Shown one piece after another: positions 12,515 to 64,000 of a stretch of DNA of 64,000 bases. The DNA is taken from NCBI RefSeq assembly GCF_002160895.1, contig NZ_NFLL01000012.1:1-64000 (forward strand). The letters run 5' to 3'. The notes under the pieces are model-generated. The model searched no databases. It worked only from the letters and a program-made list of their open reading frames with translations, and was not told the DNA's origin. The stretch's first letter is position 1; every line of letters begins with the position of its first letter. The position numbers and the translations under genes were made by a program. This DNA is from Faecalibacterium sp. An122 (lineage in GTDB: Bacteria > Bacillota > Clostridia > Oscillospirales > Ruminococcaceae).

Positions 12515-12547
12515 TTCTCCTGTACAGGCATCCATATTCCCAAAGTC

Positions 12548-12592: not shown

Positions 12593-12642
12593 CCGTTTGT
12601 GTGCGGGCCCGCCGGCCTGTGCTCTGCCCCGGGGCGGCGCCG

Positions 12643-14382: not shown

Positions 14383-15774
<1,392 letters not shown>

Positions 15775-15818
15775 ATTTCTCTCTCCTTTTTGCTCCAGAG
15801 GTCAGGCGGCGGGGCGGT

Positions 15819-16787
15819 TCAAATCACCAGCCCGCCATTTACGCCGAACACCTGCCCCGTGATATACCCGGCCTCTTCCCCTGCCAGGAACAGCAGGGCC
15901 CGGGCCACCTCCTCTGCGCTGCCCAGGCGGCCCACCGGGGTTTCTTCCGCCAGGGCCTCCCGGTCCGCATCGGTAAAGGACGCCATCATATCGGTGTCGA
16001 TGACGCCGGGGGCCACACAGTTGGCCGTGATGCCGCTGGGCCCCTCCTCCCGGGCCAGGGCTTTGGTCAGGCCGATCAGGCCGGCCTTGGCCGCCGAATA
16101 ATGGACCTCACAGCTGCCGCCGGTCTGGCCCCACATGCTGCTCACCGTGAGAATCCGCCCCCACTTGCGGCGGATCATCCCGGGCAGCGCCAGCTGGCAC
16201 AGGTGGAAGGCACCGGTCAGGTTGACGTCCAGCATACGCTGCCACTCGTCGGGGGCGATGTCGGTGAAGAGCTTCTGCTGGGCGATGCCGGCGTTGCAGA
16301 CCAGAATGTCCACATGGCCCAGAGCCGCGGCGGCCGCGGCAAACGCCGCCTCACAGGCCGAACGGCTGGCCACGTCGCACTGGAGGGCGATGCAGCCGGG
16401 CAGGCTGGCCTCCAGGGCTGCGGCGGCCTGGGTGTTGGTGTGGTAGAGCACCGCCACCCGATACCCCGCCTGATAAAAGGCGCGGGCTGCCGCTGCGCCG
16501 ATGCCCCGGTCGCCCCCCGAGATCAACACCCCGCGGGCGGGGGTATGGCAGGGCTGCGGGGCGGAAGGTTCCGCCGCCGGCCGGGCCGGTGCGGGACAGG
16601 GCTCCGATGCAGTCGCTGCAGGGGGCTCCTCCACAGGCAGTTCAGGCGGCTCGGCTGCAGCCGGAATCTCTGCGGCGGGAGCTTTTTCCTGCTCCGGCGC
16701 AAAGGACGCAGGCACGTCCTGTTTGGGCTGCGGGGCCGGTGCGGGTGGTTCCAGCTCAAAAGTCAGCTCAAATTCGTCTTCGTGCAT
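15819..16787 (-). CDS. SDR reductase with long acidic Pro-rich N-terminus (EF-P 5-aminopentanone reductase type)
   Basis: NAD(P)H-dependent short-chain reductase. The start at ATG 16787 follows GGAGAAACAGCCT, giving 322 residues; an upstream in-frame ATG lacks a ribosome site. Residues 1-85 are a low-complexity Pro/Ala/Glu tail. The Rossmann domain then shows ISGGDRGIG, CNAGIAQQKLFTDI, the catalytic SSMWG serine and HYSAAKAG tyrosine/lysine, and a GQVFGVNGG end. The AQQKLFTDI and SSMWGQ-GSCEVHYSA segments resemble the YmfI group that modifies elongation factor P. FabG (3-oxoacyl-ACP reductase) is the alternative; the absence of other fab genes nearby argues against it. Confidence 0.8.
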   Translation of the reverse strand: MHEDEFELTFELEPPAPAPQPKQDVPASFAPEQEKAPAAEIPAAAEPPELPVEEPPAATASEPCPAPARPAAEPSAPQPCHTPARGVLISGGDRGIGAAAARAFYQAGYRVAVLYHTNTQAAAALEASLPGCIALQCDVASRSACEAAFAAAAAALGHVDILVCNAGIAQQKLFTDIAPDEWQRMLDVNLTGAFHLCQLALPGMIRRKWGRILTVSSMWGQTGGSCEVHYSAAKAGLIGLTKALAREEGPSGITANCVAPGVIDTDMMASFTDADREALAEETPVGRLGSAEEVARALLFLAGEEAGYITGQVFGVNGGLVI

Positions 16788-52541: not shown

Positions 52542-54290
52542 ATGGTTGACCTGAAAGCCAAGCCCTTTTATCTGACCGATGCACAAATCCAGTGGGTGGA
52601 AGATACCATTGCCGGCATGACCCTGGAGGAAAAACTGGGCCAGCTGCTGGTGGTTTTGCAGGCCCAGCCCGGGTTCCAGGAAAAGCAGGTGGAAGGCCTG
52701 CTGAACCAGTCCCACATGGGCGGCCTGCGCTGGCAGAACGGCGGGAACAAGCAGCAGATTTACAACCAGCTGACCACCTTCCAGAAGCACAGCAAAATTC
52801 CTCTGCTGATCGCCGCCAACTGCGACGACGGCGGCAACGGTGCAGCCCCCGAGGGTACCTTTGTGGCCACCGCCGTGGAGTGCGGCGCCGGCCAGGGCAC
52901 CGAAAACGCCTATCATGTGGGCCTGGTGGCCGGCCGTGAGGCCAGCGCCCTGGGGGCAAACTGGATGTTCAACCCGGTGTGCGATGTTTACATGAACTGG
53001 CGGAACACCATCGTCAACACCCGGTCCTTCGGCTCCGACCCCGACCAGGTCATCGCCAACGCCAAAGCCTACATCCAGGGCATCAAGGACGCCAACCCCA
53101 ACATGGCCTGCGCCGCCAAACATTTCCCCGGCGACGGCGTAGAAGAGCTGGACCAGCACCTGGCCATGGGGGTCAATAACCTGAGCGTGGAGGACTGGGA
53201 GGCCACCTTTGGCAAGGTCTACCGGGCTCTCATCGAGGACGGCCTGGAATCGGTCATGGTGGGCCACATCGCCCTGCCTGAAATGAGCCGGAAGCTCTGC
53301 CCCGGCATCCAGGACAAGGACATCAAGCCCGCCACCATGGCCCCCGAACTGATCACCGGCCTGCTGCGGGGGGAACTGGGCTTCAACGGCGTGGTGATCA
53401 CCGACGCCACCCACATGGTGGGCATGACCGCCACCGCCAAGCGGAAGGATGCCATCCCCGGCGCCATCATCGCCGGCTGCGACATGATCCTGTTTGCCAA
53501 CGACATCGACGAGGACATCGCCTACCTGAAAGCCGCCTATGACAAGGGCGACCTCACCGAGGAGCGGCTGTCCGATGCATTGCATCGGATTCTGGGCCTG
53601 AAAGCCCACCTGCACCTCTATGAGGAGGCTGTCCGCATCCCGGACAAGGCCGGCCTGGACTGCATCGGCTGCGCCGAGCACCAGGCCTACAGCGACCAGG
53701 CCGCCGACAGCTGCATCACCTTGGTGAAGGATACCCGCGGCACCCTGCCGGTGAACCCCGCCGAGAAAAAGCGGGTGTTCCTGGTGTACGTGGGCTCCAC
53801 CCCCACCTCCAAGGGCTACAAGGGCGACCCCGTGAAACAGGTGGTGAAGGAGGAACTGGAAAAGGCCGGCTTTGAGGTGGACCTGTGCCCCAACTTCCAC
53901 GCCCTGGAAGTAGAAAACGGCGTCTCCCCCATGAACTTTGTCAAGATGCTGGGCCATTCCAGCCGGGAGGAATTTATTAAGACTCACGACTGGGCCCTGA
54001 TTGTGGTGAACGTCAAGGGCTATGCCCAGGAAAACGATGTCCGGGTTCGGTGGAGCTGCAACCACAGTCTGGAACTGCCGTGGTATAATGAAGAAATCCC
54101 CACTGTGGCCATCAGCCTCAACTATACCAACCATCTGATTGACCTGCCCCAGATTCACACCTTCATCAATGCCTACGGCCCCAAGCGCAACCACATCCGG
54201 GCCGCCATCGAGAAGATCACCGGCCAGAGCGAATTCCGCGGCACCGCCGAGGACAACGTGTTCTGTGACCGCTGGGACACCCGCCTGTAA
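52542..54290 (+). CDS. GH3 glycosidase, NagZ-like
   Basis: Cytoplasmic glycosidase of 582 residues; ATG 52542 follows AAAGGAG at nine bases. The barrel domain has AAKHFPGDG and, shortly after, ELDQHLAMG, resembling the NagZ loop with a His acid/base, and the nucleophile Asp in VVITDATHMVGM. The C-terminal alpha/beta domain (about 400-560) follows. NagZ-type enzymes act on beta-N-acetylhexosaminides; some GH3 members of this shape are phosphorylases or beta-glucosidases. It is different in subfamily from the divergent GH3 at 39997. Confidence 0.9.
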   Translation: MVDLKAKPFYLTDAQIQWVEDTIAGMTLEEKLGQLLVVLQAQPGFQEKQVEGLLNQSHMGGLRWQNGGNKQQIYNQLTTFQKHSKIPLLIAANCDDGGNGAAPEGTFVATAVECGAGQGTENAYHVGLVAGREASALGANWMFNPVCDVYMNWRNTIVNTRSFGSDPDQVIANAKAYIQGIKDANPNMACAAKHFPGDGVEELDQHLAMGVNNLSVEDWEATFGKVYRALIEDGLESVMVGHIALPEMSRKLCPGIQDKDIKPATMAPELITGLLRGELGFNGVVITDATHMVGMTATAKRKDAIPGAIIAGCDMILFANDIDEDIAYLKAAYDKGDLTEERLSDALHRILGLKAHLHLYEEAVRIPDKAGLDCIGCAEHQAYSDQAADSCITLVKDTRGTLPVNPAEKKRVFLVYVGSTPTSKGYKGDPVKQVVKEELEKAGFEVDLCPNFHALEVENGVSPMNFVKMLGHSSREEFIKTHDWALIVVNVKGYAQENDVRVRWSCNHSLELPWYNEEIPTVAISLNYTNHLIDLPQIHTFINAYGPKRNHIRAAIEKITGQSEFRGTAEDNVFCDRWDTRL

Positions 54291-54302
54291 GGAGGAACCG
54301 CT

Positions 54303-55136
54303 GTGACCCTGCAAGCATTTGCCAAACAAAAAGATTACCTGATCTGCGTGGACTCGGACGGCTGTGCCATGGATACCATGGACATCAAGCATTTCCGCTG
54401 CTTCGGGCCCTGCATGGTGGAGGAATGGGGGCTGGAACAGTGGTCCGAGCCCATCCTGAACCGCTGGAACGCCATCAACCTCTATTCCGGCACCCGCGGC
54501 ATCAACCGGTTCAAGGGCCTGGCTATGGCCCTCACCGAGATCGACAAGGTTTACCGCCCCATCGAAGGGGTGGCCGAGCTGGCCGCCTGGGCCGAACACG
54601 CCCCCGAGCTGTCCAACCAGGCCATCGCAGAGGCGGCCAAAACCGCAAAAGGCCCCTGCCTGGCCAAGGCTCTGTCCTGGTCCCAGAAGGTGAACGCCGC
54701 CATCGACGCCCTGCCCGAGAGCGATAAGAAGCCTTTCCCCGGGGTGGCCGAAGCCTTGGCTGCCGCCCATCAAGCGGCGGACGTGGCTATTGTGTCCAGC
54801 GCCAACCGGGAAGCTGTGGAAGAAGAATGGACCCGCTGCGGCCTGCTGCCCTCGGTGGACGTGCTCTGCTGCCAGGACAGCGGCTCCAAGGCCGCCTGCA
54901 TTGCCCAGCTGAAAGCCAAGGGCTATGACCCCGCCCACATCCTGATGGTGGGGGACGCCCCCGGCGACCAGGCCGCCGCCCAGAAAAACGGGGTTCTGTT
55001 CTACCCCATCCTGGCCCGCCACGAGGCGGACAGCTGGGCCGAGTTCACCGCCAAAGCCCTGCCCGCCCTGCTGAGCGGCGGTTATGGCCCCTACGGCGAG
55101 GAAATGGCCAGGCGTTTTGAGAAGAACCTGCTGTAA
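54303..55136 (+). CDS. HAD-superfamily hydrolase
   Basis: Phosphatase-like protein of 277 residues with GTG start after AAGGAGG. Motif I is VDSDGCAMD with two Asp, motif II is IVSSANREAV, the Lys is in GSKAACIAQL and motif III is MVGDAPGD. A helical cap sits between motifs I and II (about residues 25-150). It is the last gene of the glycan operon, 12 bases after GH3, so it may dephosphorylate a sugar phosphate or nucleotide formed during catabolism. The exact substrate is unknown. Confidence 0.9.
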   Translation: MTLQAFAKQKDYLICVDSDGCAMDTMDIKHFRCFGPCMVEEWGLEQWSEPILNRWNAINLYSGTRGINRFKGLAMALTEIDKVYRPIEGVAELAAWAEHAPELSNQAIAEAAKTAKGPCLAKALSWSQKVNAAIDALPESDKKPFPGVAEALAAAHQAADVAIVSSANREAVEEEWTRCGLLPSVDVLCCQDSGSKAACIAQLKAKGYDPAHILMVGDAPGDQAAAQKNGVLFYPILARHEADSWAEFTAKALPALLSGGYGPYGEEMARRFEKNLL

Positions 55137-55281
55137 TCTTCTCCTTTTCTCACCCATGGCCGGCAGGCTGCACCGCCCGCCGGCGGAGACCGGCTCCTTC
55201 TGACATTTTCTCAACTCTTTTTATCCTTTTTTCTTCTCTTTCTGACTGAGGACACATCCCCATTCTGTTCTCAAAACAGAG

Positions 55282-55327
55282 AAACCCGGACTCCCCTTTC
55301 CATGCCTTGGGTGAGTCCGGGTTTTTT
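55282..55327 (+). terminator. terminator of the glycan-use operon
   Basis: AAACCCGGACTC pairs with GAGTCCGGGTTT across a 22-base loop and is followed by T residues. Confidence 0.88.
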
Positions 55328-55807
55328 ATTTGGTTTCACTTCTGCAACAACACCGCACTTTTGAGCATGAATGGGAATGGGTGGAGATATGGGCAATCTG
55401 GATTTCGTGCCCGCACAGAATAGCACCGGAAAAATACATTGACCGGTGCTGAGGGCTTTGTGTATTCGATGCTTGATCTGGAATACGAAAAGGCCGGGGT
55501 GATTTCAAAGAGAGGTATCCCCTCTTTGGCTCTGGGTTTCCAATAGGGGCGAGCAGCATCCCTGTTGGCACACGACTTTGGAACCAAAGTCTAGTGTGTT
55601 ATACCTTTGTGCAGCAGACGGCAGCTGCGTGGGGCAGTTCCGCTCTGCTCTCCTCACAACAAGGTGCCCCCGCGGGGCAGCAGAAGCGGCAAAGAAAGGC
55701 TGACAGTTTGTGCCTAAAAGCACAGGTTGCCAGCCTTTTGCTGTCTGCGGAACAAAGGTATATAAAGCCCCGCCGCAGCGGATTATCTTACGTCTGGTAC
55801 TCCCCTA
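55328..55807. other. gene-free start of the mobile region
   Basis: About 480 bases without a convincing gene. Short open stretches lack ribosome sites. A terminator-like hairpin AAAGGCTG...CAGCCTTTTG lies at 55696-55741. GC content and codon style change here from the flanking glycan operon to the mobile region. Confidence 0.5.
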
Positions 55808-56617
55808 TCACTTTCTTGGGTGCTTTCCCCTCTGACTGGTCCCGCTTTTCAGGAGGCTCGATTTTCGGCTTATTTGAATCAGCCACTGCTTTTCGGTGTC
55901 GGTTAGTTTGTTGTAAGGCAGGTGAATTTGCTTACAGAAAATCATAATCCATTTCTGGAAATCGCTGCCTTCCGTTTCGGAGATGCTTTCAATGTACTCT
56001 TTGAGCGAGGCGGCATCATCCGCAGCAGCACTCCCCTGATCTCCGCTGTGTGCCTGTTTCAGATCCTTTAGGATGCGCTCCACATCGTCGCTGACCACTC
56101 GGGCAAAGTATTCATCCTCGTCAATTTGGGCAGCCTTTAATGTCAATAGGGTGTTGTCCTCTTCGGGGTGGTACTTTTCCAGAATAGCGGTTCGGGCGGA
56201 TTCCAGCAAGCTGTTCAGATTGCGGATCTGCATAGACACTATGCCATCCACGTAGATCTCCATATCCGCCATCAGCCGGGCAAATTCAGGGTGGGCGATT
56301 AGCTCCGACAGGAGCCGGTTGTTGACCTTTCCACTGCTCAATACGTCCACTGCGTCATCACTCAGATGCAGGTCTGCAAGACTTGTCCCTGAGTGTTTTT
56401 TATTTTCGGTCAAACCCAGCAGATAATCCAAGCCTACGCCGTAGAGCGCCGCCAGCTTCTCCAATGCCCCCAGGTTGATATCCGGCTTTTTGTCGTTTTC
56501 GTAGTTGCTCAGCGTGGACTTTACAATCCCCGTCTGTTCAGATACCTGTTCCAGCGTCAGGTTATGTTCCCGCCTCAGATCGGTGAGTCGTTCTCCCGTG
56601 GTTAGTTTCGTCTGCAT
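55808..56617 (-). CDS. XRE-family regulator with long C-terminal domain
   Basis: DNA-binding regulator of 269 residues. ATG 56617 follows GGAGGTGAATCA; the longer frame upstream lacks a ribosome site. The XRE domain contains LTLEQVSEQTGIVKSTLSNY with the usual LAALYGVGLDYLLG end near residue 75. The remaining 190 residues are helical and charged, of unknown function, with a Lys/Arg-rich tail. It faces away from the palindrome array and MobV gene and has a palindrome in its promoter, as expected for an element-borne repressor. Confidence 0.88.
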   Translation of the reverse strand: MQTKLTTGERLTDLRREHNLTLEQVSEQTGIVKSTLSNYENDKKPDINLGALEKLAALYGVGLDYLLGLTENKKHSGTSLADLHLSDDAVDVLSSGKVNNRLLSELIAHPEFARLMADMEIYVDGIVSMQIRNLNSLLESARTAILEKYHPEEDNTLLTLKAAQIDEDEYFARVVSDDVERILKDLKQAHSGDQGSAAADDAASLKEYIESISETEGSDFQKWIMIFCKQIHLPYNKLTDTEKQWLIQISRKSSLLKSGTSQRGKHPRK

Positions 56618-56649
56618 TGATTCACCTCCATTGTTTTTTATTTTACCAT

Positions 56650-56665
56650 ATTCGATCTGTCGAAT
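56650..56665. promoter_or_regulatory. palindromic operator at the XRE promoter
   Basis: ATTCGA-TCTG-TCGAAT, a perfect six-base inverted repeat 33 bases before the start codon, within the likely promoter. A looser TCGAAGGAA...TTCCTCGA repeat lies at 56670-56690. Confidence 0.6.
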
Positions 56666-56783
56666 TGGGTCGAAGGAACGAATTCCTCGATGTTTTGAAC
56701 ACATATCCGTTTCGTCCATAATCGTGGAAAACGGCTGTCAGAGCGCCTTTACTTTAATTTATGGAAAAATCAGGAAATCAAAA

Positions 56784-56798
56784 TTTTCCTGCTATAAT
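56784..56798 (+). promoter_or_regulatory. extended -10 promoter
   Basis: TTTTCCTGCTATAAT: TGnTATAAT extended -10 with TATAAT at 56793-56798. No good -35 box is seen. It fires toward the palindrome array. Confidence 0.55.
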
Positions 56799-56804
56799 AG
56801 CCTT

Positions 56805-57055
56805 CACAGATAAGTGAATGACCGTCCTCACCGCCCAAACCGCGACGACCTCCACCCGGAGCGAGCGCCCGAAAGGGATGGCACAGCGCCCTCAGAAATG
56901 AGCGGTTGCCTGTCAGAAGCGATGAGGGAGACCGGCAGAGATTGATGAAAAGGAGGTATGTAACGAAATGTTACGCACCTGGCAGGACCGGCACAGCTCC
57001 CATCCAGACATAAAAGGAGGTGTACCCCGAATCAGGGTACACCTTCTCTTTTCCG
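56805..57055 (+). ncRNA. candidate untranslated or leader RNA
   Basis: Between the extended -10 and a terminator-like hairpin (57018-57044, AGGTGTACCC / GGGTACACCT then a T-rich tail) lies about 210 bases rich in short complementary blocks. Two AAGGAGGT-like sites occur but only tiny frames follow (a 42-codon frame from 56969 runs through the hairpin). A short regulatory RNA is possible; I do not recognise a family. Confidence 0.35.
57018..57044 (+). terminator. terminator-like hairpin before the palindrome array
   Basis: AGGTGTACCC-CGAATCA-GGGTACACCT followed by TCTCTTTTCC. Confidence 0.6.
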
Positions 57056-57158
57056 ACACCACAGTCAAATGGGCCGCCGCGTATGGAGCTATCTGATAAT
57101 CGAAGTACCTGCACGGCCTAAGCCTGCTCCCCCATCCTCGGGCCGGTAATTCTGTATA

Positions 57159-57651
57159 TGGGAAAACTTGGCCTTTTCGCTATGTACGTATGTACAAGGT
57201 CAGTACAAACCTATTTGGTGAAAGGCTCCAGAGGGTGTAACCGTTTGTTACTCCCTTGAATTGGTTGTGACCAATTTGGTCACAACCAAATGAAAAATCA
57301 CCCCCACTGTTCCGGATTAGATGGAAATCGTGAAGCACGACATCCTTACCATGCCAGAAAGGGGACGGCGAATCACCGACCCCATCATTTTACAGAGGAT
57401 TTCCTTTATATGGGAGAATGGGAGAACTTGCCCTTTTTGTTGTGTACCTATGTACGAGATTCGTACAATGGCTACGGCAAATATCCTCCAGGCACAGCGC
57501 TTTATGAGTCTAAAGTAGGCGTGTTCAAATTGAACACACCTATAAAATCCACAGTCTGAGTTCTGAATCAAGCAGCCAAAATCCGATAGATGAGAGGATT
57601 TCGCCCTTTTGCTATGTACGTGCGTACAGAACCTGTACATACGTACATAGC
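57159..57651. repeat. three related GTAC-rich modules
   Basis: Three near copies (about 57159-57208, 57413-57468, 57590-57651) of a block reading ACTTGSCCTTTT then GCTATGTACGTATGTAC and a second GTAC. Each ends in an inverted repeat such as TGTACGA-GAT-TCGTACA or GTACAG-AAC-CTGTAC. The third is extended to a 19-base inverted repeat with two mismatches. Confidence 0.75.
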
Positions 57652-58324
57652 GAAATCCCCAAAACGTGCTATATACGCAATCCTTTACGTTCCTGAAGTG
57701 GTTGTGGACATTTTGTCCACAACCACTCGGATTTGACCAGGTTGTCACGGTGACAACTCGGTTTTGATGGCACTGGACAAAATGTCCTGTGCCACTGAAG
57801 ATCTCCGAAAGCTTTAAGACTCTGAACTAGGTGTCGACAAAATGTCCACGGTCTTTTTATTGGATAACCTTTTCGGAAGTGCATTTGCGTTGATCCCAAT
57901 TCTTGTAATCAAGTGGTCATTTTGACCACTTGATCTTGCACAATATCTGTATGCACGTATATAGCGAAACCCCCAAAACGCGCTATATACACAATGCTTT
58001 ATGATACTGAACTGGTCTGGGTCATTTTGACCCAGACCAACCGGGTTCCGATTAAGTCCCTATTTGGACTTACTAAAAACCAGGTTGTTTCATCTCAAAA
58101 GCAAATCAGTAAGTTAAAGTAGTCGGATTCATTTGAATCCGACTACTTTATTTGCGTAAAGTTCGGACAGCAACTCTATCATACTGTGCCCGTTGGATCA
58201 AGTTATCATTTTGATAACTTGATTTTGAGAGCACGGTTGTCTCAGTTATTAGACTTATAATCAAGTGCTCAAAATGAACACTTGATTTTGGTTCAGTTGG
58301 TGCTGGATAAAATGTCCAGCACCA
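57261..58324. repeat. array of 14 diverse short palindromes with a shared core
   Basis: Inverted repeats at 57261-57289, 57521-57537, 57697-57727, 57741-57757, 57768-57794, about 57831-57850, 57908-57934, 58013-58039, 58053-58072, 58115-58150, 58197-58223, 58259-58287 and 58298-58324, plus the GTAC one at 57611-57651. Arms are 7-17 bases, mostly perfect, and differ from one another. Most have the centre WCA-TTT-TGW or its complement WCA-AAA-TGW. No gene lies between them. A further member is at 59628-59653 after the relaxase operon. Confidence 0.9.
57653..58015. repeat. pair of 55-base direct repeats inside the array
   Basis: AAATCCCCAAAACGTGCTAT with its continuation at 57653-57707 is repeated with substitutions from 57966 to 58015. 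Each copy is followed by one of the palindromes. The second copy contains GTATATAGCG / CGCTATATAC, a perfect 10-base inverted repeat. Confidence 0.7.
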
Positions 58325-58374
58325 CTTTTATAGTCGAAGCTCATCCACCTACCTAAAAGAAAGGAGTTTTTACT

Positions 58375-58497
58375 ATGCCCGTCATCAATACGATTGAATT
58401 GCCAAAAAGGAGGGCCGTCATTGAGCCAACCACAATACGCTATCATGCGCTTTGCCAAGTACAAGGGGCCGGAGATCACCAACATCGAAGCCCATAA
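58375..58497 (+). CDS. leader peptide overlapping the relaxase start
   Basis: A 40-codon frame starting ATG at 58375 with a strong AAAGGAG site at nine bases, encoding a basic peptide that begins MPVINTIELPKRRAVIEP. It ends at 58497 inside the MobV gene in another frame. The arrangement suggests translational coupling or attenuation of the relaxase; it may be only a leader and not a functional protein. Confidence 0.45.
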   Translation: MPVINTIELPKRRAVIEPTTIRYHALCQVQGAGDHQHRSP

Positions 58498-59407
58498 CGA
58501 GCGCAGAAAAGAAAAGTACGCCAGCAACCCCGATATTGACCTTTCCCGCAGCAAGCAAAACTTCCACCTGATTAAGCCGCCCCAGCGCTACCGGGCCGAG
58601 GCCGAGCGACAAATCAGCGCTGCCGGCTGCCGCACCCGAAAGGACAGTGTTCGGGTGGTGGAGGTGCTGTTCACCGCCACACCGGAATTCTTTCAGGGCA
58701 AGAAGCTGCCTGAAATCCGGCAGTACTTTGAAGAAGCGCTCCACTTCCTGGAGCAGTATCAACCCAAAGAAACGATCATTTCCGCCGTGGTGCATATGGA
58801 CGAGAAGACGCCCCATATGCACCTTTCTTTTGTCCCCTTGACGCCAGATGGGAGACTCAGCGCCAAAGAAATTGTAGGCAACAAAAAGAAGCTGAGCTGG
58901 TGGCAGGACAAGTTCTGGGAGCACATGGTCGTCAAATACTCCGACCTGGAACGCGGTGAGAGCGCCAGCCAAACGGGCCGCGACCATATCCCGCCCCGCA
59001 TTTTCAAGGAGATGGCTCACCTGACCAAGCAGCGCCAGAAGCTGGACCAGCTGCTCGCTGGCATCGGTCCCTTGAACAGCAAGAAGCGGGCCACCGAGAT
59101 TTCAGAATTGCTGGACGGTTATATCCCGGCCGTGGAGAAGATGCGGACCCAGCTCAAAAAGTACAGTACAGCCTTTACCAGTACCAAGGCTGAGAATGAA
59201 AAGCTCAAGAAGAAAAATAAAAAGCTCTCGGAGTCCCTGGACGAGGCGACTCACGAGAGCGTTCTGAAGCAGCTGAAGGATGCCAAGCTCCAACGGGAGT
59301 ATCAGGAGACCGTAGTCATTCTTGAACGCATTCCCAAAGAGATTCTGGATGCGTATACCCACATGGGAACCACAGAACGTGATCACCCCATGAAACAGGG
59401 CTTATGA
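58421..59407 (+). CDS. MobV-family relaxase
   Basis: Nicks oriT and pilots DNA during mobilization. TTG 58421 follows AGGAGG at seven bases, giving 328 residues that begin MSQPQYAIMRFAKYKG, the family start. Conserved features are HNERRKEKYASNPDI, RVVEVLFTATPEFF and the His-rich metal motif VVHMDEKTPHMHLSFVPL. The C-terminal 110 residues form a coiled coil. MobV elements need a helper conjugation system, and none is in the window. An oriT is expected close upstream, in or beside the palindrome array. Confidence 0.95.
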   Translation: MSQPQYAIMRFAKYKGPEITNIEAHNERRKEKYASNPDIDLSRSKQNFHLIKPPQRYRAEAERQISAAGCRTRKDSVRVVEVLFTATPEFFQGKKLPEIRQYFEEALHFLEQYQPKETIISAVVHMDEKTPHMHLSFVPLTPDGRLSAKEIVGNKKKLSWWQDKFWEHMVVKYSDLERGESASQTGRDHIPPRIFKEMAHLTKQRQKLDQLLAGIGPLNSKKRATEISELLDGYIPAVEKMRTQLKKYSTAFTSTKAENEKLKKKNKKLSESLDEATHESVLKQLKDAKLQREYQETVVILERIPKEILDAYTHMGTTERDHPMKQGL

Positions 59408-59425
59408 GCATTGGGAGGTAATCAT

Positions 59426-59611
59426 TTGGCAAAAAAGAAAGCGATCAATGATTACGGCACCGGCATTCCACAGCGCGAGATGGAAGCGCTGGCTCGAGTC
59501 CTGCTGCCGGAAATTGAAAAATTTTACGCCAGCGAAGAAGGTCAGCGCCAGTTTGCTCAGTGGAAAGAGGAACAGCAGCTAAAACAGCAGAACCTCCCTA
59601 TGGCTGGGTAA
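59426..59611 (+). CDS. small hypothetical protein after MobV
   Basis: A 61-residue protein from TTG 59426, with GGGAGG seven bases upstream, 18 bases after the relaxase stop. It begins MAKKKAINDYGTGIPQREME and is highly charged and Gln-rich, mostly helical. I do not recognise the family. Its position suggests an accessory mobilization or regulatory role. Confidence 0.65.
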   Translation: MAKKKAINDYGTGIPQREMEALARVLLPEIEKFYASEEGQRQFAQWKEEQQLKQQNLPMAG

Positions 59612-59627
59612 GTAAATTAATTTTCAA

Positions 59628-59653
59628 GTCTAGTGCTCAAGTGAGCACTGGAC
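59628..59653. repeat. outlying member of the palindrome family
   Basis: AGTGCTCA-AG-TGAGCACT with flanking GTC/GAC pairs. The arm matches that of the palindrome at 58259-58287. Confidence 0.65.
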
Positions 59654-59702
59654 CTACATAATACTAAATCATCGTATATCAAAGGTAACCCTCAAAATAG
59701 AA

Positions 59703-59744
59703 AATGTGCCTTCTTTCAATCAGGGAAGAAGGCACATCTTTTTT
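59703..59744. terminator. bidirectional terminator after the MobV operon
   Basis: ATGTGCCTTCTT pairs with AAGAAGGCACAT, with six T on the plus side and a T-rich tail on the minus side. It lies between convergent genes. Confidence 0.85.
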
Positions 59745-59772
59745 ACCGGACTGGGAACTATTTTAGGGAAGA

Positions 59773-60534
59773 TCAGGATGCTGCAAACAATTGCAAATTA
59801 CTGTCCTTGTTTCGCTCACTCCATCGAACTACTTTTGCTTCATAATTTAAGAATGCATCCTCAATTCCTTTGGCAATTGTATTTTGATCGTTCAAAATTA
59901 CAATCAATTGGCTATCATTTCTTCTTGCAGGTTTCGTATCATTCCAGGCAAACAAAATATTTCCCATACTTGATTTATTTGGATTATTAACTGCTTGGCA
60001 AAGCCTTTCTGGCTTTGTTTTACTTCTTTGCAACAAGAAATCATAGTTATGAGAAAATCCGGAAATTCCAGTAAACTGAACATTGTCCGAATAAAAAATA
60101 TCCTTTTCTGAAAAGAATTCCTGAATATCATCAAGAAAAAGCGAGCTCACCTTGGCTTTAGAAATTGTGAACATATCATCAATTCGCAGCATTGCCTGAA
60201 TAAATAGGTGCTTTTTCTGTGCAAAAGAACTTACAGGAGCCTTACAAGTCAATTCATCTCCTTCAAGTTTTACACCGTACTGATTTAATATTCGTTGTAG
60301 ATGCTTTTTCCGTGCCGCTGTAAATTGAAATCCTTCCATCTTCAAATTTCGAATTGTGGCACTATCATCTGTAAAGTAAATATCATTTTCGATTTGACGC
60401 ACATAAATTTGAAGATAGTCATTCGCATTATCCAAATAAGGAGTTGTAATCTCGTAATACTCTCCTACTTTTTCAAATGTAATCTCCTGTTTCAGCCATG
60501 ATGCGTAATCATCAATAAGTTTTTGAATATCCAA
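59773..60534 (-). CDS. DUF1828/DUF1829 domain protein
   Basis: A 253-residue protein. TTG 60534 was chosen because AAAGGAGG lies seven bases upstream. The N-terminal half has IYFTDDSATIRNLKMEGF, the hallmark of DUF1828, and the C-terminal half matches the DUF1829 extension (about 130-250). Its biochemical function is not known. It starts 17 bases after the end of the DUF6978 gene, so the pair forms one transcript; such pairs sit in variable regions and may be a toxin-antitoxin or defence pair, which is speculation. Low GC. Confidence 0.85.
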   Translation of the reverse strand: MDIQKLIDDYASWLKQEITFEKVGEYYEITTPYLDNANDYLQIYVRQIENDIYFTDDSATIRNLKMEGFQFTAARKKHLQRILNQYGVKLEGDELTCKAPVSSFAQKKHLFIQAMLRIDDMFTISKAKVSSLFLDDIQEFFSEKDIFYSDNVQFTGISGFSHNYDFLLQRSKTKPERLCQAVNNPNKSSMGNILFAWNDTKPARRNDSQLIVILNDQNTIAKGIEDAFLNYEAKVVRWSERNKDSNLQLFAAS

Positions 60535-60551
60535 GATTCTCCCTCCTTTCA

Positions 60552-61000
60552 TTACAATACTTCAAGTTGATAATTGATTTGTGGTTGCTCAACAACATTA
60601 AACTTTGTCAAAAAAGCAATCGTATTTTCCACAAAAGTATCTTCTCGGATATCTTCTGCTGGAAAAGCATAACCCCGCCCATATTCTTCTGTATATATAT
60701 ATGCCAGTGACTACCACAAATCTTTTTGCCATCCGGGTTATAATGAATGGTAGTTGGATTGATATGAAGCTCCAACAGCATTGTTCCATTTTTTCTGATG
60801 CGGGCTCCAATATTATACTTAAAAGGTTTGATTCTGCCTCGGTATATTTTTACGGCAAAAACATCCTTTTTAGTATCCCCAATAACATCAAATTCTTCCT
60901 CGCCGCCACAGCTGGGGAATCCCACTTCAGCAACCAGAGAACGCTTTGTCATTTCAAGGAGTCTATGCGCTTCTTCATTGGTAAGTTTAGGAACGCTCAT
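60552..61000 (-). pseudogene. DUF6978-family gene with frameshift in a TA repeat
   Basis: ATG 61000 follows GGGGAGG at seven bases and begins MSVPKLTNEEAHRLLEMTKR. The frame is good until SHWHIY, where a TATATATATAT run (60692-60702) shifts it. With two bases fewer in that run, the frame continues YTEEYGRGYAFPAEDIRE to a stop at 60552, giving 148 residues, with a well-placed partner gene after it. As given, the frame instead ends near 60608 with an unrelated tail. It may be a switchable repeat, a true pseudogene or a sequencing error. The product resembles DUF6978 proteins of unknown role. Confidence 0.75.
60692..60702. repeat. TA dinucleotide repeat in coding sequence
   Basis: TATATATATAT inside the DUF6978 gene; a change by one TA unit would restore the full frame. 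Confidence 0.85.
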
Positions 61001-61024
61001 CTGATTACCTCCCCTATTTTGTTT

Positions 61025-61053
61025 AGTGTAGCACATAATCCCTGTTCATTCAA
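61025..61053 (-). promoter_or_regulatory. promoter of the DUF6978/DUF1828 pair
   Basis: Minus strand: TTGAAT (61053-61048), 17 bases, TACACT (61030-61025), about 25 bases before the start codon. Confidence 0.75.
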
Positions 61054-61255
61054 TACATGGCAATTATTTAGTAAGGTTTCTTTTTCGACAAATACTGTCC
61101 TATGAAACCTATAGACTATGGTTTTGAAACTTTTCTCTTCCCAAGACAGCACAGCGAATAACAAGTTCTAAAAGGCTTATGTCATCGGTCAAGAAAAGTC
61201 CCTTGAGCAATGGAAAAGTGCCTCTGTGCCCCTTAAAATCCGGTCACTGCGCCGC

Positions 61256-61298
61256 AAAGGCGGGCTCTCCCCTTTCCTCGGAGGAAAGCCCGCCCTTT
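61256..61298. repeat. GC-rich hairpin near the tRNA-Pro junction
   Basis: AAAGGCGGGCT pairs with AGCCCGCCTTT-like sequence around an inner TTTCCTCGGAGGAAA hairpin. Possibly a terminator of a chromosomal transcript. Confidence 0.55.
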
Positions 61299-61336
61299 CC
61301 GCTCACCGCGTCAAATCCAGGTTCTCGGTAGAAAGA

Positions 61337-61383
61337 AGAAATCCGAACCCGTCTCCCACCGGGAAGATCAAGTTCGGATTTCT
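61337..61383 (-). terminator. tRNA-Pro terminator
   Basis: AGAAATCCGAAC pairs with GTTCGGATTTCT, followed on the minus strand by a T-rich tail. It begins seven bases after the CCA end of the tRNA-Pro fragment. Confidence 0.75.
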
Positions 61384-61389
61384 ATCTCT

Positions 61390-61436
61390 TGGTCGGAGTG
61401 GCGAGACTCGAACTCGCGGCCTCCTGCTCCCAAACG
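61390..61436 (-). tRNA. 3' half of tRNA-Pro (TGG), integration junction
   Basis: Minus strand reads from the anticodon loop (TTTGGGA with TGG) through the 3' anticodon strand GCAGG, the T arm GCGAG-TTCGAGT-CTCGC, the acceptor strand CACTCCG, discriminator A and an encoded CCA. The matching 5' anticodon strand CCTGC, D arm and 5' acceptor strand are missing; unrelated sequence begins right at the anticodon loop. This is the usual remnant left when an element integrates into a tRNA gene, the full gene being rebuilt at the other end. Confidence 0.85.
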
Positions 61437-61603
61437 TGTGTCAGAACTTTCAAACAGCACTCTGCCGCCCTCTTTGACGCTTTCTGTTGCTCCGCCAGTT
61501 CCTCTTTAGAACTCTTTTGCCCTGCTTGTTTCAAGAAAATCTTTCGTCTTTTGGGATTTGTGTGGGATTGGATTCTGTATATTAAAAGATGTTCCGTCCG
61601 GTT

Positions 61604-61720
61604 TTAGGGGGCGATGACAGGACGGTTCATCTCAGAGCAGAGGCGCAGGAAATACGCCGCATAAACAAAGAAATACTCTGGACCGTGGGCTTTGACAACA
61701 CGGAATAATTCTCTTGTCAG
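61604..61720 (-). pseudogene. possible C-terminal coding remnant
   Basis: A minus-strand frame ending at 61604 encodes a stretch with LFRVVKAHGPEYFFVYAAYF then CSEMNRPVIAP, protein-like in composition, but there is no start or ribosome site. It could be the tail of a gene cut by the insertion. Family not recognised. Confidence 0.25.
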
Positions 61721-61731
61721 ATGAATACAAA

Positions 61732-61760
61732 TTGACAAGAATGACAAGAATGATTATAAT
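61732..61760 (+). promoter_or_regulatory. promoter of the AlbA_2 gene
   Basis: TTGACA, 17 bases, TATAAT. The spacer and flanks carry repeated GACAAGAAT and TGACAA units, possible operator half-sites. Confidence 0.85.
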
Positions 61761-61787
61761 GACAACTAAGAAAAGGAGGCGCTGTGT

Positions 61788-63092
61788 ATGGCATTTGTTG
61801 AGAGTGAAGTTGTTGAACTGAAAGCAGAGGTCGTGGGAGATATCTGCAAAGAAGTCATTGCCTTTGCCAATACAAAAGGCGGTACGCTGTATATTGGCGT
61901 CAGCAACGATGGAAATGTCTTGGGGGTCAAAAACGCCGACCAAGTCATTTTGCAGCTAAACAATATGATTCGAGATTCCATCAAGCCTGATGTGACAATG
62001 TTTGTGGGCTACGAAAACCAACACGTCGGCGACAAGGATATCATTGCTGTGACCATTCAAAAAGGAACCGACCGGCCCTATTATCTGGGCAGTAAGGGAT
62101 TGAAACCCAGTGGGGTCTATGTCAGAAACGGCACATCTTCTGACCCGGCTACAGATACTGCGATCCGAAGAATGATCAAAGAAACCGATGGTGACAGCTT
62201 CGAATCCATGCGTTCGCTGGAACAGAACCTCAGCTTTGAAGCGGCAGAGAAGCAATTTGAAAAGCAGAATATCCCATTTGATGCTGCAAAAATGCAGACC
62301 CTTGGGATGATTTCTGCAGATGGTATCTACTCCAATGTGGCGCTGCTCCTGTCCGATCAGTGTCCCAGCACCATTAAGGCGGCGACCTTCTCGGGAGAAG
62401 ATAAAGGAACTTTTCAGGACAGAAGGGAATTTGACGGTTCGCTGTTTCAGCAAATGGAGGAGCTGTACAGCTATCTGGATATGCGTAACCAGACAAAGGC
62501 AACTTTTGATGGGCTATACCGAATCGACACACGGGATTATCCGGAAGATGCACTGCGGGAAGCGCTGCTGAACTCGCTGGTCCACAGAGACTATTCCTTC
62601 CGTGCAAGCACCCTGGTCAGTGTATATGCCGACAGAATTGAATTTGTCTCTGTAGGCGGACTGCTTTCCGGCATTGAACTGGATGACATTATGCTGGGAC
62701 TCTCGGTTTGCCGAAATCCCAAGCTGGCAGCCATATTTTATCGTCTGCAGCTGATTGAGGCATACGGCACGGGTATGCCTAAAATTATGAACGCCTATGG
62801 GGAGACGGAATTGAAACCAAAAATCGAGGTATCAAGCAACGCATTCAAAATCACGCTGCCAAACAGGAACGCCGGCGCAAATCATACAGAGACATTGATT
62901 GGCACGGTCAAAGGCGATGAAAAGCGGATTCTGGATTTCATTGGTTCCCATGGCCATATCGTACGCCGTGATGTGGATCAGCTGCTGGATGTAAGCCAAG
63001 CCACAGCCAACCGAATTCTGAAACACATGGTCGCCAAGGGCCTGATTTATCAGGATGGAAACGGCAGGAAAACAAAGTATAGACGGAAGTGA
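61788..63092 (+). CDS. Schlafen AlbA_2 / divergent-AAA (HATPase_c_4) protein
   Basis: A 434-residue protein; ATG 61788 follows AGGAGG at eight bases. The N-terminal AlbA_2 domain includes VIAFANTKGGTLYIGVSNDG and GVYVRNGTSSDPA. A central HATPase_c_4 (divergent AAA_4) region has REALLNSLVHRDYSF and IEAYGTGMPKIM. The C-terminal winged helix has VRRDVDQLLDVSQATANRIL. Proteins of this build are putative transcriptional regulators, and AlbA_2 also occurs in nuclease-like Schlafen proteins of defence systems. It has a strong promoter and is followed after 26 bases by the TOTE gene, so the two are probably co-expressed. Confidence 0.93.
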   Translation: MAFVESEVVELKAEVVGDICKEVIAFANTKGGTLYIGVSNDGNVLGVKNADQVILQLNNMIRDSIKPDVTMFVGYENQHVGDKDIIAVTIQKGTDRPYYLGSKGLKPSGVYVRNGTSSDPATDTAIRRMIKETDGDSFESMRSLEQNLSFEAAEKQFEKQNIPFDAAKMQTLGMISADGIYSNVALLLSDQCPSTIKAATFSGEDKGTFQDRREFDGSLFQQMEELYSYLDMRNQTKATFDGLYRIDTRDYPEDALREALLNSLVHRDYSFRASTLVSVYADRIEFVSVGGLLSGIELDDIMLGLSVCRNPKLAAIFYRLQLIEAYGTGMPKIMNAYGETELKPKIEVSSNAFKITLPNRNAGANHTETLIGTVKGDEKRILDFIGSHGHIVRRDVDQLLDVSQATANRILKHMVAKGLIYQDGNGRKTKYRRK

Positions 63093-63118
63093 CTGTGGGT
63101 GTGGAGGGGGGACTGTGT

Positions 63119-64000
63119 ATGAATAGAAAAGCGATCATCAATAACCGGGAGTATGCGCTTCTTGAAATTGTCCCGTCTCTGGATGGAGGGCAGGCGCTGC
63201 TTCTCTGTGAAGATGAAAACGGCAAAAGGGCGGTATGCTCCGAGCCGCTGTGGCGCAGCTGTGCGCTAACGGATGTGCAGTCTGCTCCGGTTCACGCACA
63301 CAGCTCCTCACAGGAGAAAATCGAGTATTTCCTCTCTGTTTTCAAAGGGCGGGAAGATGTATATGCACGCCGATATCACAGCACGACCACCGGGAAAACC
63401 GGTTACACCCCAGTCTGTAAAAATGAATGGGCGCATGGCCTGTGTGATAAAAAGAAATACAGGTGCGTAGAGTGCCCCAACCGTGAGTTTCGGCCACTCA
63501 CGGCCGATGTGGTCAAGGCGCATTTGATGGGCCGTGATGCTTTGTGTAGAGATGTGGCGGCAATCTATCCGATGCTGGAGGACAACAGGACCTGGCTGTT
63601 GGCTGCGGATTTTGATGAAGAAAACTGGAAGCTTGATGTGACTGCATTTTGCAAATCCTGCAAAGAAGCAGGACTTGTACCAGCAGTGGAACGCTCCCGT
63701 TCCGGAAACGGCGCACATATCTGGTTTTTCTTTTCGGAGCCTGTTTCTGCCGCCGATGCCAGGCGCTTGGGGACCGGTTTGCTGACCCGAACCATGTCGT
63801 GCAGACATGAGCTATCCTTTTCATCCTATGACCGGTTGTTCCCGTCTCAGGATATTGTGCCGAAGGGCGGCTTTGGGAATTTGATTGCCCTGCCATTTCA
63901 AGGCCAGGCGCAGAAAGACGGAAATTCTCTGTTTGTGGATGATCACTTTGAGCCTTATCCCGATCAGTGGGCGTTTCTGTCCTCCCTGCCCAAAATTACA
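63119..64000 (+). CDS. TOTE-type archaeo-eukaryotic primase/helicase protein, 3' end beyond window
   Basis: First 294 residues of a larger protein. ATG 63119 follows a GGAGGGGGGA site. After about 80 residues of N-terminal sequence comes a Cys-rich segment (VCKNEWAHGLCDKKKYRCVE) likely to bind zinc, then the primase core with the metal motif LLAADFDEENW, RSRSGNGAHIWFFF, TGLLTRTM and VPKGGFGNLIALPFQ. This matches the archaeo-eukaryotic primase domain of TOTE conflict systems, proposed antiviral or mobile-element conflict proteins that usually continue with a DEAD/DEAH helicase and a nuclease. These later domains are not visible. Confidence 0.88.
   Translation, partial: MNRKAIINNREYALLEIVPSLDGGQALLLCEDENGKRAVCSEPLWRSCALTDVQSAPVHAHSSSQEKIEYFLSVFKGREDVYARRYHSTTTGKTGYTPVCKNEWAHGLCDKKKYRCVECPNREFRPLTADVVKAHLMGRDALCRDVAAIYPMLEDNRTWLLAADFDEENWKLDVTAFCKSCKEAGLVPAVERSRSGNGAHIWFFFSEPVSAADARRLGTGLLTRTMSCRHELSFSSYDRLFPSQDIVPKGGFGNLIALPFQGQAQKDGNSLFVDDHFEPYPDQWAFLSSLPKIT

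Follow-up and report, generated by a model that had tools for sequence, protein, structure and literature searches.

The window (the whole 64,000-nucleotide stretch of Faecalibacterium DNA that was analysed) contains a mobile element whose copy here keeps an oriT, an XRE-family regulator gene, a palindrome array and a MobV relaxase gene, together with only a stub of a helicase gene (Table 1). The stub matches the relative L140 at 82% from position 12520 of that locus, where the ORF ends at 12594, and its counterpart in L146 (9496-10953) is a DUF5906/Pox_D5 gene. L146 is a complete relative, with oriT region, XRE, CHC2 primase, DUF5906/D5-type helicase, array, MobV, an excisionase-like HTH_17 gene and a tyrosine integrase. 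Since the window element is without primase, helicase and integrase genes (no integrase was found among the neighbouring ORFs scanned in the window), its array may be a relic there. The shorter relative L144 has no room for the DUF1828/DUF1829 and DUF6978 cargo. The right end of the element is common to L144 and L145 (about 83%) and by eye resembles the 3' half of a tRNA gene; ARAGORN finds no tRNA gene in 54000-64000.

An intact MobV-type oriT core lies at 55589-55609, 1.7 kb upstream of the array, as the single match in the window at up to two mismatches, and the same core precedes the close array-less MobV copies L120, L043 and L012. We take the whole site to resemble the pMV158 oriT, and assume the hallmark of a MobV oriT to be an inverted repeat followed by a TAGTGTG/TTA nick region. 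The first-pass annotation had offered an oriT or origin-control region as one reading of the array, which gives way to this separate oriT outside it. A related idea, that the array consists of degenerate oriTs, was first suggested by CTTTA-N-TAAAGT-like flanks shared by slots near 57500, 57682, 57811 and 57996, which to us recall the pMV158 oriT; it was dropped because the intact oriT was found elsewhere.

Table 1. Features of the mobile element and its palindrome array, in window positions. Scores out of 24 are arm positions shared with in-gene sites of ParB-like genes, for the window palindrome (own) or the best of its slot class (class best).
Feature	Position	Strand	Pairing	Remarks
Mobile element, approximate extent	~55391-61426			homology with L144 over 55391-57246, 57332-59667, 61257-61426
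MobV-type oriT: inverted repeat ACTTTGGAACCAAAGT then TAGTGTGTTATACC	55574-55609	+		outside array
XRE-family regulator (HTH_19/HTH_3)	55808-56719	-
Helicase 3' stub	57072-57146, end approximate	+		gene preceding array in complete relatives
GTACGTATGTAC-rich repeat, three copies	57158-57208, 57418-57468, 57590-57640	+ (first copy)		iteron-like; presumed role
Slot A	57261-57289		14 pairs, perfect	nearest in-gene site L162, 22/24
Slot B	57516-57542		12/13 pairs	own 17, class best 18/24; no close in-gene partner
Slot D	57697-57727		14 pairs, perfect	best 20/24 (L188); inner seven bases as in L327
Slot E	57741-57757		8 pairs, centre CGG	class best 22/24 (L144 variant against genes L238/L221)
Slot F	57768-57794		11/12 pairs	own 19, class best 20/24 (L188)
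Slot F2, degenerate, TAGGTGTCGACA AAA TGTCCACGGTCT	57828-57854		6/7 pairs at 57833-57849, by eye	16/24
Slot G	57908-57934		12 pairs, perfect	nearest L154 gene, 22/24
Slot H	58013-58039		12 pairs, perfect	nearest L250 gene, 22/24
Weak palindrome TAAGTCC/GGACTTA	58053-58072		7 pairs, 6-base loop	by eye
Slot K	58115-58150		17 pairs, perfect, TT loop	class best 19/24; no close in-gene partner
Slot L	58197-58223		12 pairs, perfect	own 22/24; L144 variant equals the L139/L141 ParB-like gene site, 24/24
Slot M	58259-58287		12/13 pairs	own 20/24; class best L154, 22/24
Slot N	58298-58324		11/12 pairs	own 23/24
MobV relaxase (Mob_Pre, E 3.5e-53)	58394-59407	+
Small ORF 3' of MobV	59411-59611	+		no Pfam match at E 0.01
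Extra palindrome, 2-base centre	59628-59653			3' of MobV; arms changed in L144 and L145
Cargo, DUF1828/DUF1829 and DUF6978 genes	59773-61036			between small ORF and right end
Right end	61257-61426
Schlafen/AlbA_2 protein, RecG-like C-terminal part	61788-63092			just beyond element

Palindromes upstream of mobV

The array occupies 57261-58324, as first delimited, and the initial figure of at least thirteen inverted repeats agrees with our count of 13, eleven found by scan (slots A, B, D, E, F, G, H, K, L, M and N) and two weak ones by eye. Their description as nearly all perfect was too strong, since seven of the 13 are perfect and four others among the eleven scanned carry one mismatch. The proposed common centre holds: a CA-TTT/AAA-TG core occupies most slots, the exceptions being 57741 (CGG) and 58115 (TT loop), and the commonest palindrome measures 27 bp (12 + 3 + 12) around CA-TTT-TG or CA-AAA-TG. 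The palindrome TGTACGA-GAT-TCGTACA at 57451, also scanned, was excluded from the count because it belongs to another repeat. The array has six palindromes with a loop of at most 4 and perfectly paired arms of 9 or more, and the whole 64-kb window has 13; when the region was dinucleotide-shuffled 500 times, the mean was 0.024 and the maximum 1. With arms of at least 7 there are nine in the array, against a shuffled mean of 0.33 and a maximum of 3. The array is real and far above chance. Units of a GTACGTAC motif plus a palindrome have seemingly been duplicated within it (57626-57733 and 57940-58047). These two 108-nt units are 76% alike and enclose different palindromes, and such alike flanks around unlike palindromes suggest that the array may have grown by duplication and change of specificity.

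Absence from all relatives had been named at the outset as evidence against the array, and this is not what was seen: six distinct arrays stand upstream of MobV in Faecalibacterium, with slot order conserved and most slots single-copy within each array. These are the window, G000:C11 (palindromes identical in G021:C7), G000:C1, G004:C68, G016:C16 (which ends at a contig end) and G015:C2 (identical in G012:C1). MobV relatives were drawn from 61 genomes and from the best 80 of 368 contig-search matches, and the palindrome scan reached at most 1700 bp upstream of MobV, contig ends having shortened some loci. Among those best 80 of 368 loci, at least six core palindromes occur in 4, one or two in 10 (L048, L061-L063, L065-L067, L073, L077 and L084) and none in 66; in the six of these that were examined outside L048, they lie 600-720 bp upstream of MobV. 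The G000:C1 array holds two insertion sequences, presumably IS1182-like and IS3-like (L140 12840-14177 and ~14700-16330), the second of which breaks slot G right after the centre.

The claim that both arms change together stands between slots and is weaker within a slot across relatives. Between slots, 98.6% of cells are paired and covariation reaches 0.899 against 0.164 when shuffled, in a set of 23 distinct palindromes pre-picked as near-palindromes. Within slots, 147 of 168 pair positions are invariant, 5 show two Watson-Crick pairs and 16 have changed in one arm only (14 slot classes, assigned by hand, one class being a single variant). The random decay of one arm that had been named as counter-evidence is thus seen in part, at 16 one-arm against 5 two-arm positions, and 5 of the 14 classes include both AAA and TTT centres. 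A looser slot clustering was set aside because it merged different slots. The within-slot pattern suits putative protein sites, in which single changes would be tolerated, better than it suits a strict hairpin. The initial view that selection acts on the palindrome as such, one option being DNA sites bound by dimeric proteins, was in our judgement right.

If single-stranded DNA extruded hairpins during MobV transfer or replication, for priming or processing, this would account for the near-perfect pairing, for a strong fold predicted for the single strand (with no shuffled sequences of that length as control) and for the clustering of palindromes between helicase and relaxase genes. We consider this structural role improbable, as one-arm changes are tolerated and as it does not predict the likeness of slots to sites in ParB-like genes, or the link of those sites to recognition helices, described below. 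A function as RNA hairpins, or as operators of the element's own XRE protein, whose gene adjoins the array, is highly improbable. G-U pairs fill 3 of 276 cells in the 23-palindrome set, a near-absence that speaks for DNA rather than RNA. Together with the lack of any Rfam family at the cut-off and the presence of like palindromes inside coding genes, this disfavours the small hairpin RNAs once suggested; at gathering score Rfam has no match in 54000-64000, and one sub-threshold match lies outside the array (57015-57088). For the operators, a dozen different sequences would be an unlikely target set for one protein.

Palindromes inside genes for ParB-like proteins

When 31 genomes of the genus were searched with a covariance model built from the palindromes, many matches turned up outside MobV arrays (a minimum, as part of the candidates were scored). 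Among 40 chosen outside loci, 13 palindromes fall inside one gene family, at one palindrome per gene and in a fixed place with arms that differ between genes, and most others lie in mobilizable elements or are unassigned. Across the order, 31 of 295 genomes have a match at E 1e-4. In the loci from this search, 3 of 28 matches lie in a recognised ParB-like gene and two clusters occur, both in other families of the order: several like palindromes at L394 871-1137, and palindromes at L395 1501-1742 between a gene for a canonical ParB (PF02195) and one for a MobA/VirD2-type relaxase. The remaining loci are mostly single palindromes without assignment.

We collected the family by protein search in bacteria and viral contigs (best 80 of 499), which gave 90 bacterial genes (96 distinct ones minus 6 weak matches) and, with the 80 viral ones, 170 genes, some of them near-identical. 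A palindrome scoring at least 8 lies within the 26 aa before the HTH in 99 of the 170 ParB-like genes and is absent at that place in 71; the same test on six shifted stretches gave 0/151, 0/168, 1/168, 8/170, 3/168 and 2/167. The viral genes, gathered by protein search alone and hence blind to palindromes, show the same placement, with 34 of 80 before the HTH and 4 elsewhere in the gene at a score of at least 8, and 27 and 0 at a score of at least 10. An earlier count at the latter threshold was confined to genes in which an HTH motif could be recognised (70, after 20 of the 90 were dropped) and found 49 before the HTH and 0 elsewhere. The in-gene centre AAA codes for Gln-Asn and the TTT of L154 and L261 for His-Phe, so the protein tolerates both. 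One reading frame is kept in 61 of 62 distinct in-gene sites, which makes some protein-level constraint possible. No extra copy of a gene's own site (at least 18/24) was found in the same fetched locus for any of the 99 genes, and two exact array palindromes had no match in the viral contigs scanned.

Pfam and NCBIfam give the family no name and no ParB domain match. Its AlphaFold model (L314, mean pLDDT 84) has a ParB N-terminal (CTPase-type) fold, to which a sequence profile match to 5k5d over columns 4-80 (E 0.008) adds, and a central HTH, with helices from residue 135 in a block of pLDDT at least 90. The top Foldseek matches are Spo0J, pNOB8-like ParB-N, Noc and Caulobacter ParB (1vz0, 5k5d, 7ol9, 6t1f) at E 1.3e-4 to 1.6e-3, with a low TM by query (0.23-0.37) and with 196-213 columns spanned in Spo0J/Noc. 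By this predicted structure the family appears ParB-like, resembling Spo0J and Noc. In L314 the palindrome encodes residues 121-130, which lie after the N-terminal domain and ahead of the HTH; residues 111-130 have pLDDT 53-55 and the flanking domains mostly above 90, so that in the model the palindrome codons encode a predicted disordered (low-confidence) linker right before the HTH.

The neighbours of these genes were inspected closely at two loci: L139 has an XRE gene, DUF6551 and a PemK/MazF-like gene beside it, and L190 has DUF6551 and, by eye, excisionase-like, integrase-like and XRE-like ORFs. In 8 genomes, 48 of the 59 family matches were examined (those left out were mostly fragments), and none of these 48 ParB-like genes has an AAA_31 ParA gene within 3 kb, the nearest being 5.1 kb away, which makes plain partition unlikely. 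By eye, the family consensus also begins without the N-terminal ParA-binding motif as described in PMC12704722. Both observations weigh against a hitch-hiking form of partition, in which the array sites would be centromeres served by a helper's ParAB. SGI1 is described as doing so with the ParABS of IncC (PMC10954446), the array sites lie at a presumed origin and the L395 palindromes adjoin a canonical ParB gene, but we rate this explanation as quite improbable here.

Recognition helices and half-sites go together in several groups when compared by eye: KNTV or KNSV with TTCCCA or TACCCA, SEGYVQRA with GATCA or GACCA, NEKYV/NEKTV with GGACA, and DSFVRRA/DSYVRRA/ESFVRRA with GGTCA. These pairings also hold when proteins from viral contigs are compared with those from chromosomal elements; for other helices, such as SESYV, the pairing is by eye less tidy. 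Over 75 unique pairs, the inner half-site tracks the recognition helix given the N-terminal domain (partial Mantel 0.22, p 0.0005), the outer half-site hardly does (0.061, p 0.04), and no such tracking is seen for the N-terminal domain once the helix is accounted for (0.031); an earlier test on 43 pairs of helix and half-site agrees. When prediction from the nearest neighbour was restricted to genes less than 60% alike in the N-terminal domain, the nearest helix predicted the inner five bases with 2.14 mismatches, against 3.09 at random, 2.96 by N-terminal domain and 3.16 by the region after the HTH. The correlation with the helix is modest, and recombination between neighbouring codons could contribute to it. 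The inner half of the in-gene site follows the cognate HTH, as a parS-like site should, and the specificity residues of ParB and Noc are placed in the HTH region by PMC7383237.

Some family members vary the arrangement. The more distant ParB-like genes L265 and L266 have a perfect palindrome with arms of 16 just before the HTH, where a TA centre stands in place of CA-NNN-TG. L180, L182, L181 and L183 share an identical in-gene site and have different N- or C-terminal protein parts, as though the HTH and its site had been swapped together as a cassette.

Array slots as candidate sites for foreign ParB-like proteins

We compared 16 slot classes (12 present in the window) with 63 in-gene sites, using as null 500 draws of random palindromes of the same composition. 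At least 20 of 24 arm positions are shared by 12 of the 16 classes (null 4.9), at least 22 by 9 (null 0.80, maximum 4 in the 500 draws) and at least 23 by 4 (null 0.06); classes B, C, F2 and K have no in-gene partner above 19/24. Identity of the inner seven bases (14/14) is a weak test, with 11 of 16 classes against a null of 7.7, a value reached in 37 of 500 draws. All arm positions are identical in 5 of 81 array variants, against a null of 0.015, the variants not being independent. Classes J, L and N have arms identical to an in-gene site in at least one array, the best in the window being 23/24; the slot N variants of L144, L145 and L146 carry the arms of the L188 ParB-like gene site (24/24). 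Genome G021 contains both an array and a ParB-like gene whose site matches, for slot N. In five site groups, the flanks of array and gene sites agree at no more than 40% identity, so what they share is limited to the site; no capture of gene fragments into the array was seen.

Arrays also accompany a second relaxase family. In G006 and G030, 11-12 palindromes within 1.1-1.3 kb (L185, L187) stand next to a VapE-like gene and to a divergent relaxase whose Mob_Pre match (E 6.8e-5) falls slightly short of the Pfam cut-off, and a related element, L204, has four palindromes, a DUF5906 helicase and a like relaxase. The 31-bp site of this integrative mobilizable element (IME) at L204 4764-4794 equals the in-gene site of L224, mismatch and centre included, between unlike flanks. 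The identity of sites that SGI1-type mimicry involves, with the site on a mobilizable element equal to that of its partner, is seen in classes J, L and N and in the L204/L224 pair.

The fixed in-gene palindromes, the tracking of the helix, the slot matches beyond the null and the second relaxase family are the reasons why we consider it likely that the array collects parS-like sites of many specificities, to be bound by ParB-like proteins from other elements or phages. Each slot would then be, or lie near, the site of one specificity class of orphan ParB-like proteins, which, as dimers, would bind there and load in the manner of Spo0J, Noc or VirB. Standing between the helicase gene and mobV, the sites could recruit the ParB-like protein of a co-resident element or phage, and replication or mobV expression would thereby respond to the neighbour. 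It is with some hesitation that we propose such recruitment, for the control of replication or of mobV, as the purpose of the array. The same sites might instead serve as decoys or in incompatibility, titrating or displacing the ParB-like proteins of competitors. Many specificities per array would suit a weapon or shield against many competitors, and there is a precedent in the parS mimics of SGI1 that are reported to destabilise IncC plasmids (PMC10954446), whereas most slots occur once per array and titration would usually need many copies; we regard a decoy function as rather unlikely. Decoy and recruitment are indistinguishable by sequence.

Related systems and implications

The closest parallel to a collection of foreign sites is SGI1, an integrative mobilizable element described as carrying parS mimics of its IncC helper, the mimics being inverted repeats that correspond to sites of the other element's ParB (PMC10954446). 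According to the same source, the two sites of SGI1 share a single specificity and its helper supplies ParAB, whereas the array here combines many specificities in about 13 sites, and no ParA lies near the ParB-like genes that were tested. Orphan ParB-fold proteins are described as common on mobile elements (PMC12704722), and VirB as loading at virS sites and controlling transcription (PMC10770331). The present family resembles both the orphan proteins with a ParB-CTPase fold and VirB/virS in joining a ParB fold to an HTH, away from parA and on mobile elements, and differs from them in that the candidate site lies inside the protein's own gene, beside the HTH codons; the string 'palindrom' is absent from the main text of PMC12704722. 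On NAH7, parS sites are likewise reported near conjugation genes, whose transcription ParB raises, but those sites match one ParB encoded by the same plasmid (PMC12421886). Inverted repeats upstream of a MobV relaxase gene are described for the pMV158-type oriT (PMC5863519), although here the MobV oriT is a separate site at 55589 of which the array is no part. Some streptococcal IMEs encode ParB-related proteins according to PMC5704250. In a literature search confined to open-licence papers, no precedent was found for in-gene parS sites or for arrays of parS mimics.

A wider and still speculative proposal, to which we give somewhat less than even weight, is that elements of gut Clostridia share an identity system. 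The ParB-like protein of each would carry its own palindrome address in the linker codons beside its HTH, such that site and specificity travel together, and small mobilizable elements would hold arrays of these addresses by their origin and relaxase gene to read, exploit or disturb their neighbours. If the array is such a set of sites, its sequence alone would list the ParB-like proteins with which an element interacts, and parS mimicry would be extended from one helper to many. The ParB-like genes would provide dozens of natural pairs of helix and site from which the code of DNA recognition by the ParB fold could be worked out, and a handle on the role of orphan ParB proteins on mobile elements and phages, which PMC12704722 treats as an open matter.

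Palindromes with the half-site GTTGTTTCCA occur at L179 5266-5294, L196 5322-5348 and L200 5329-5355. The one in L179 lies in a gene that is not ParB-like, directly after what by eye is an HTH-like stretch, possibly the same arrangement in another protein family.
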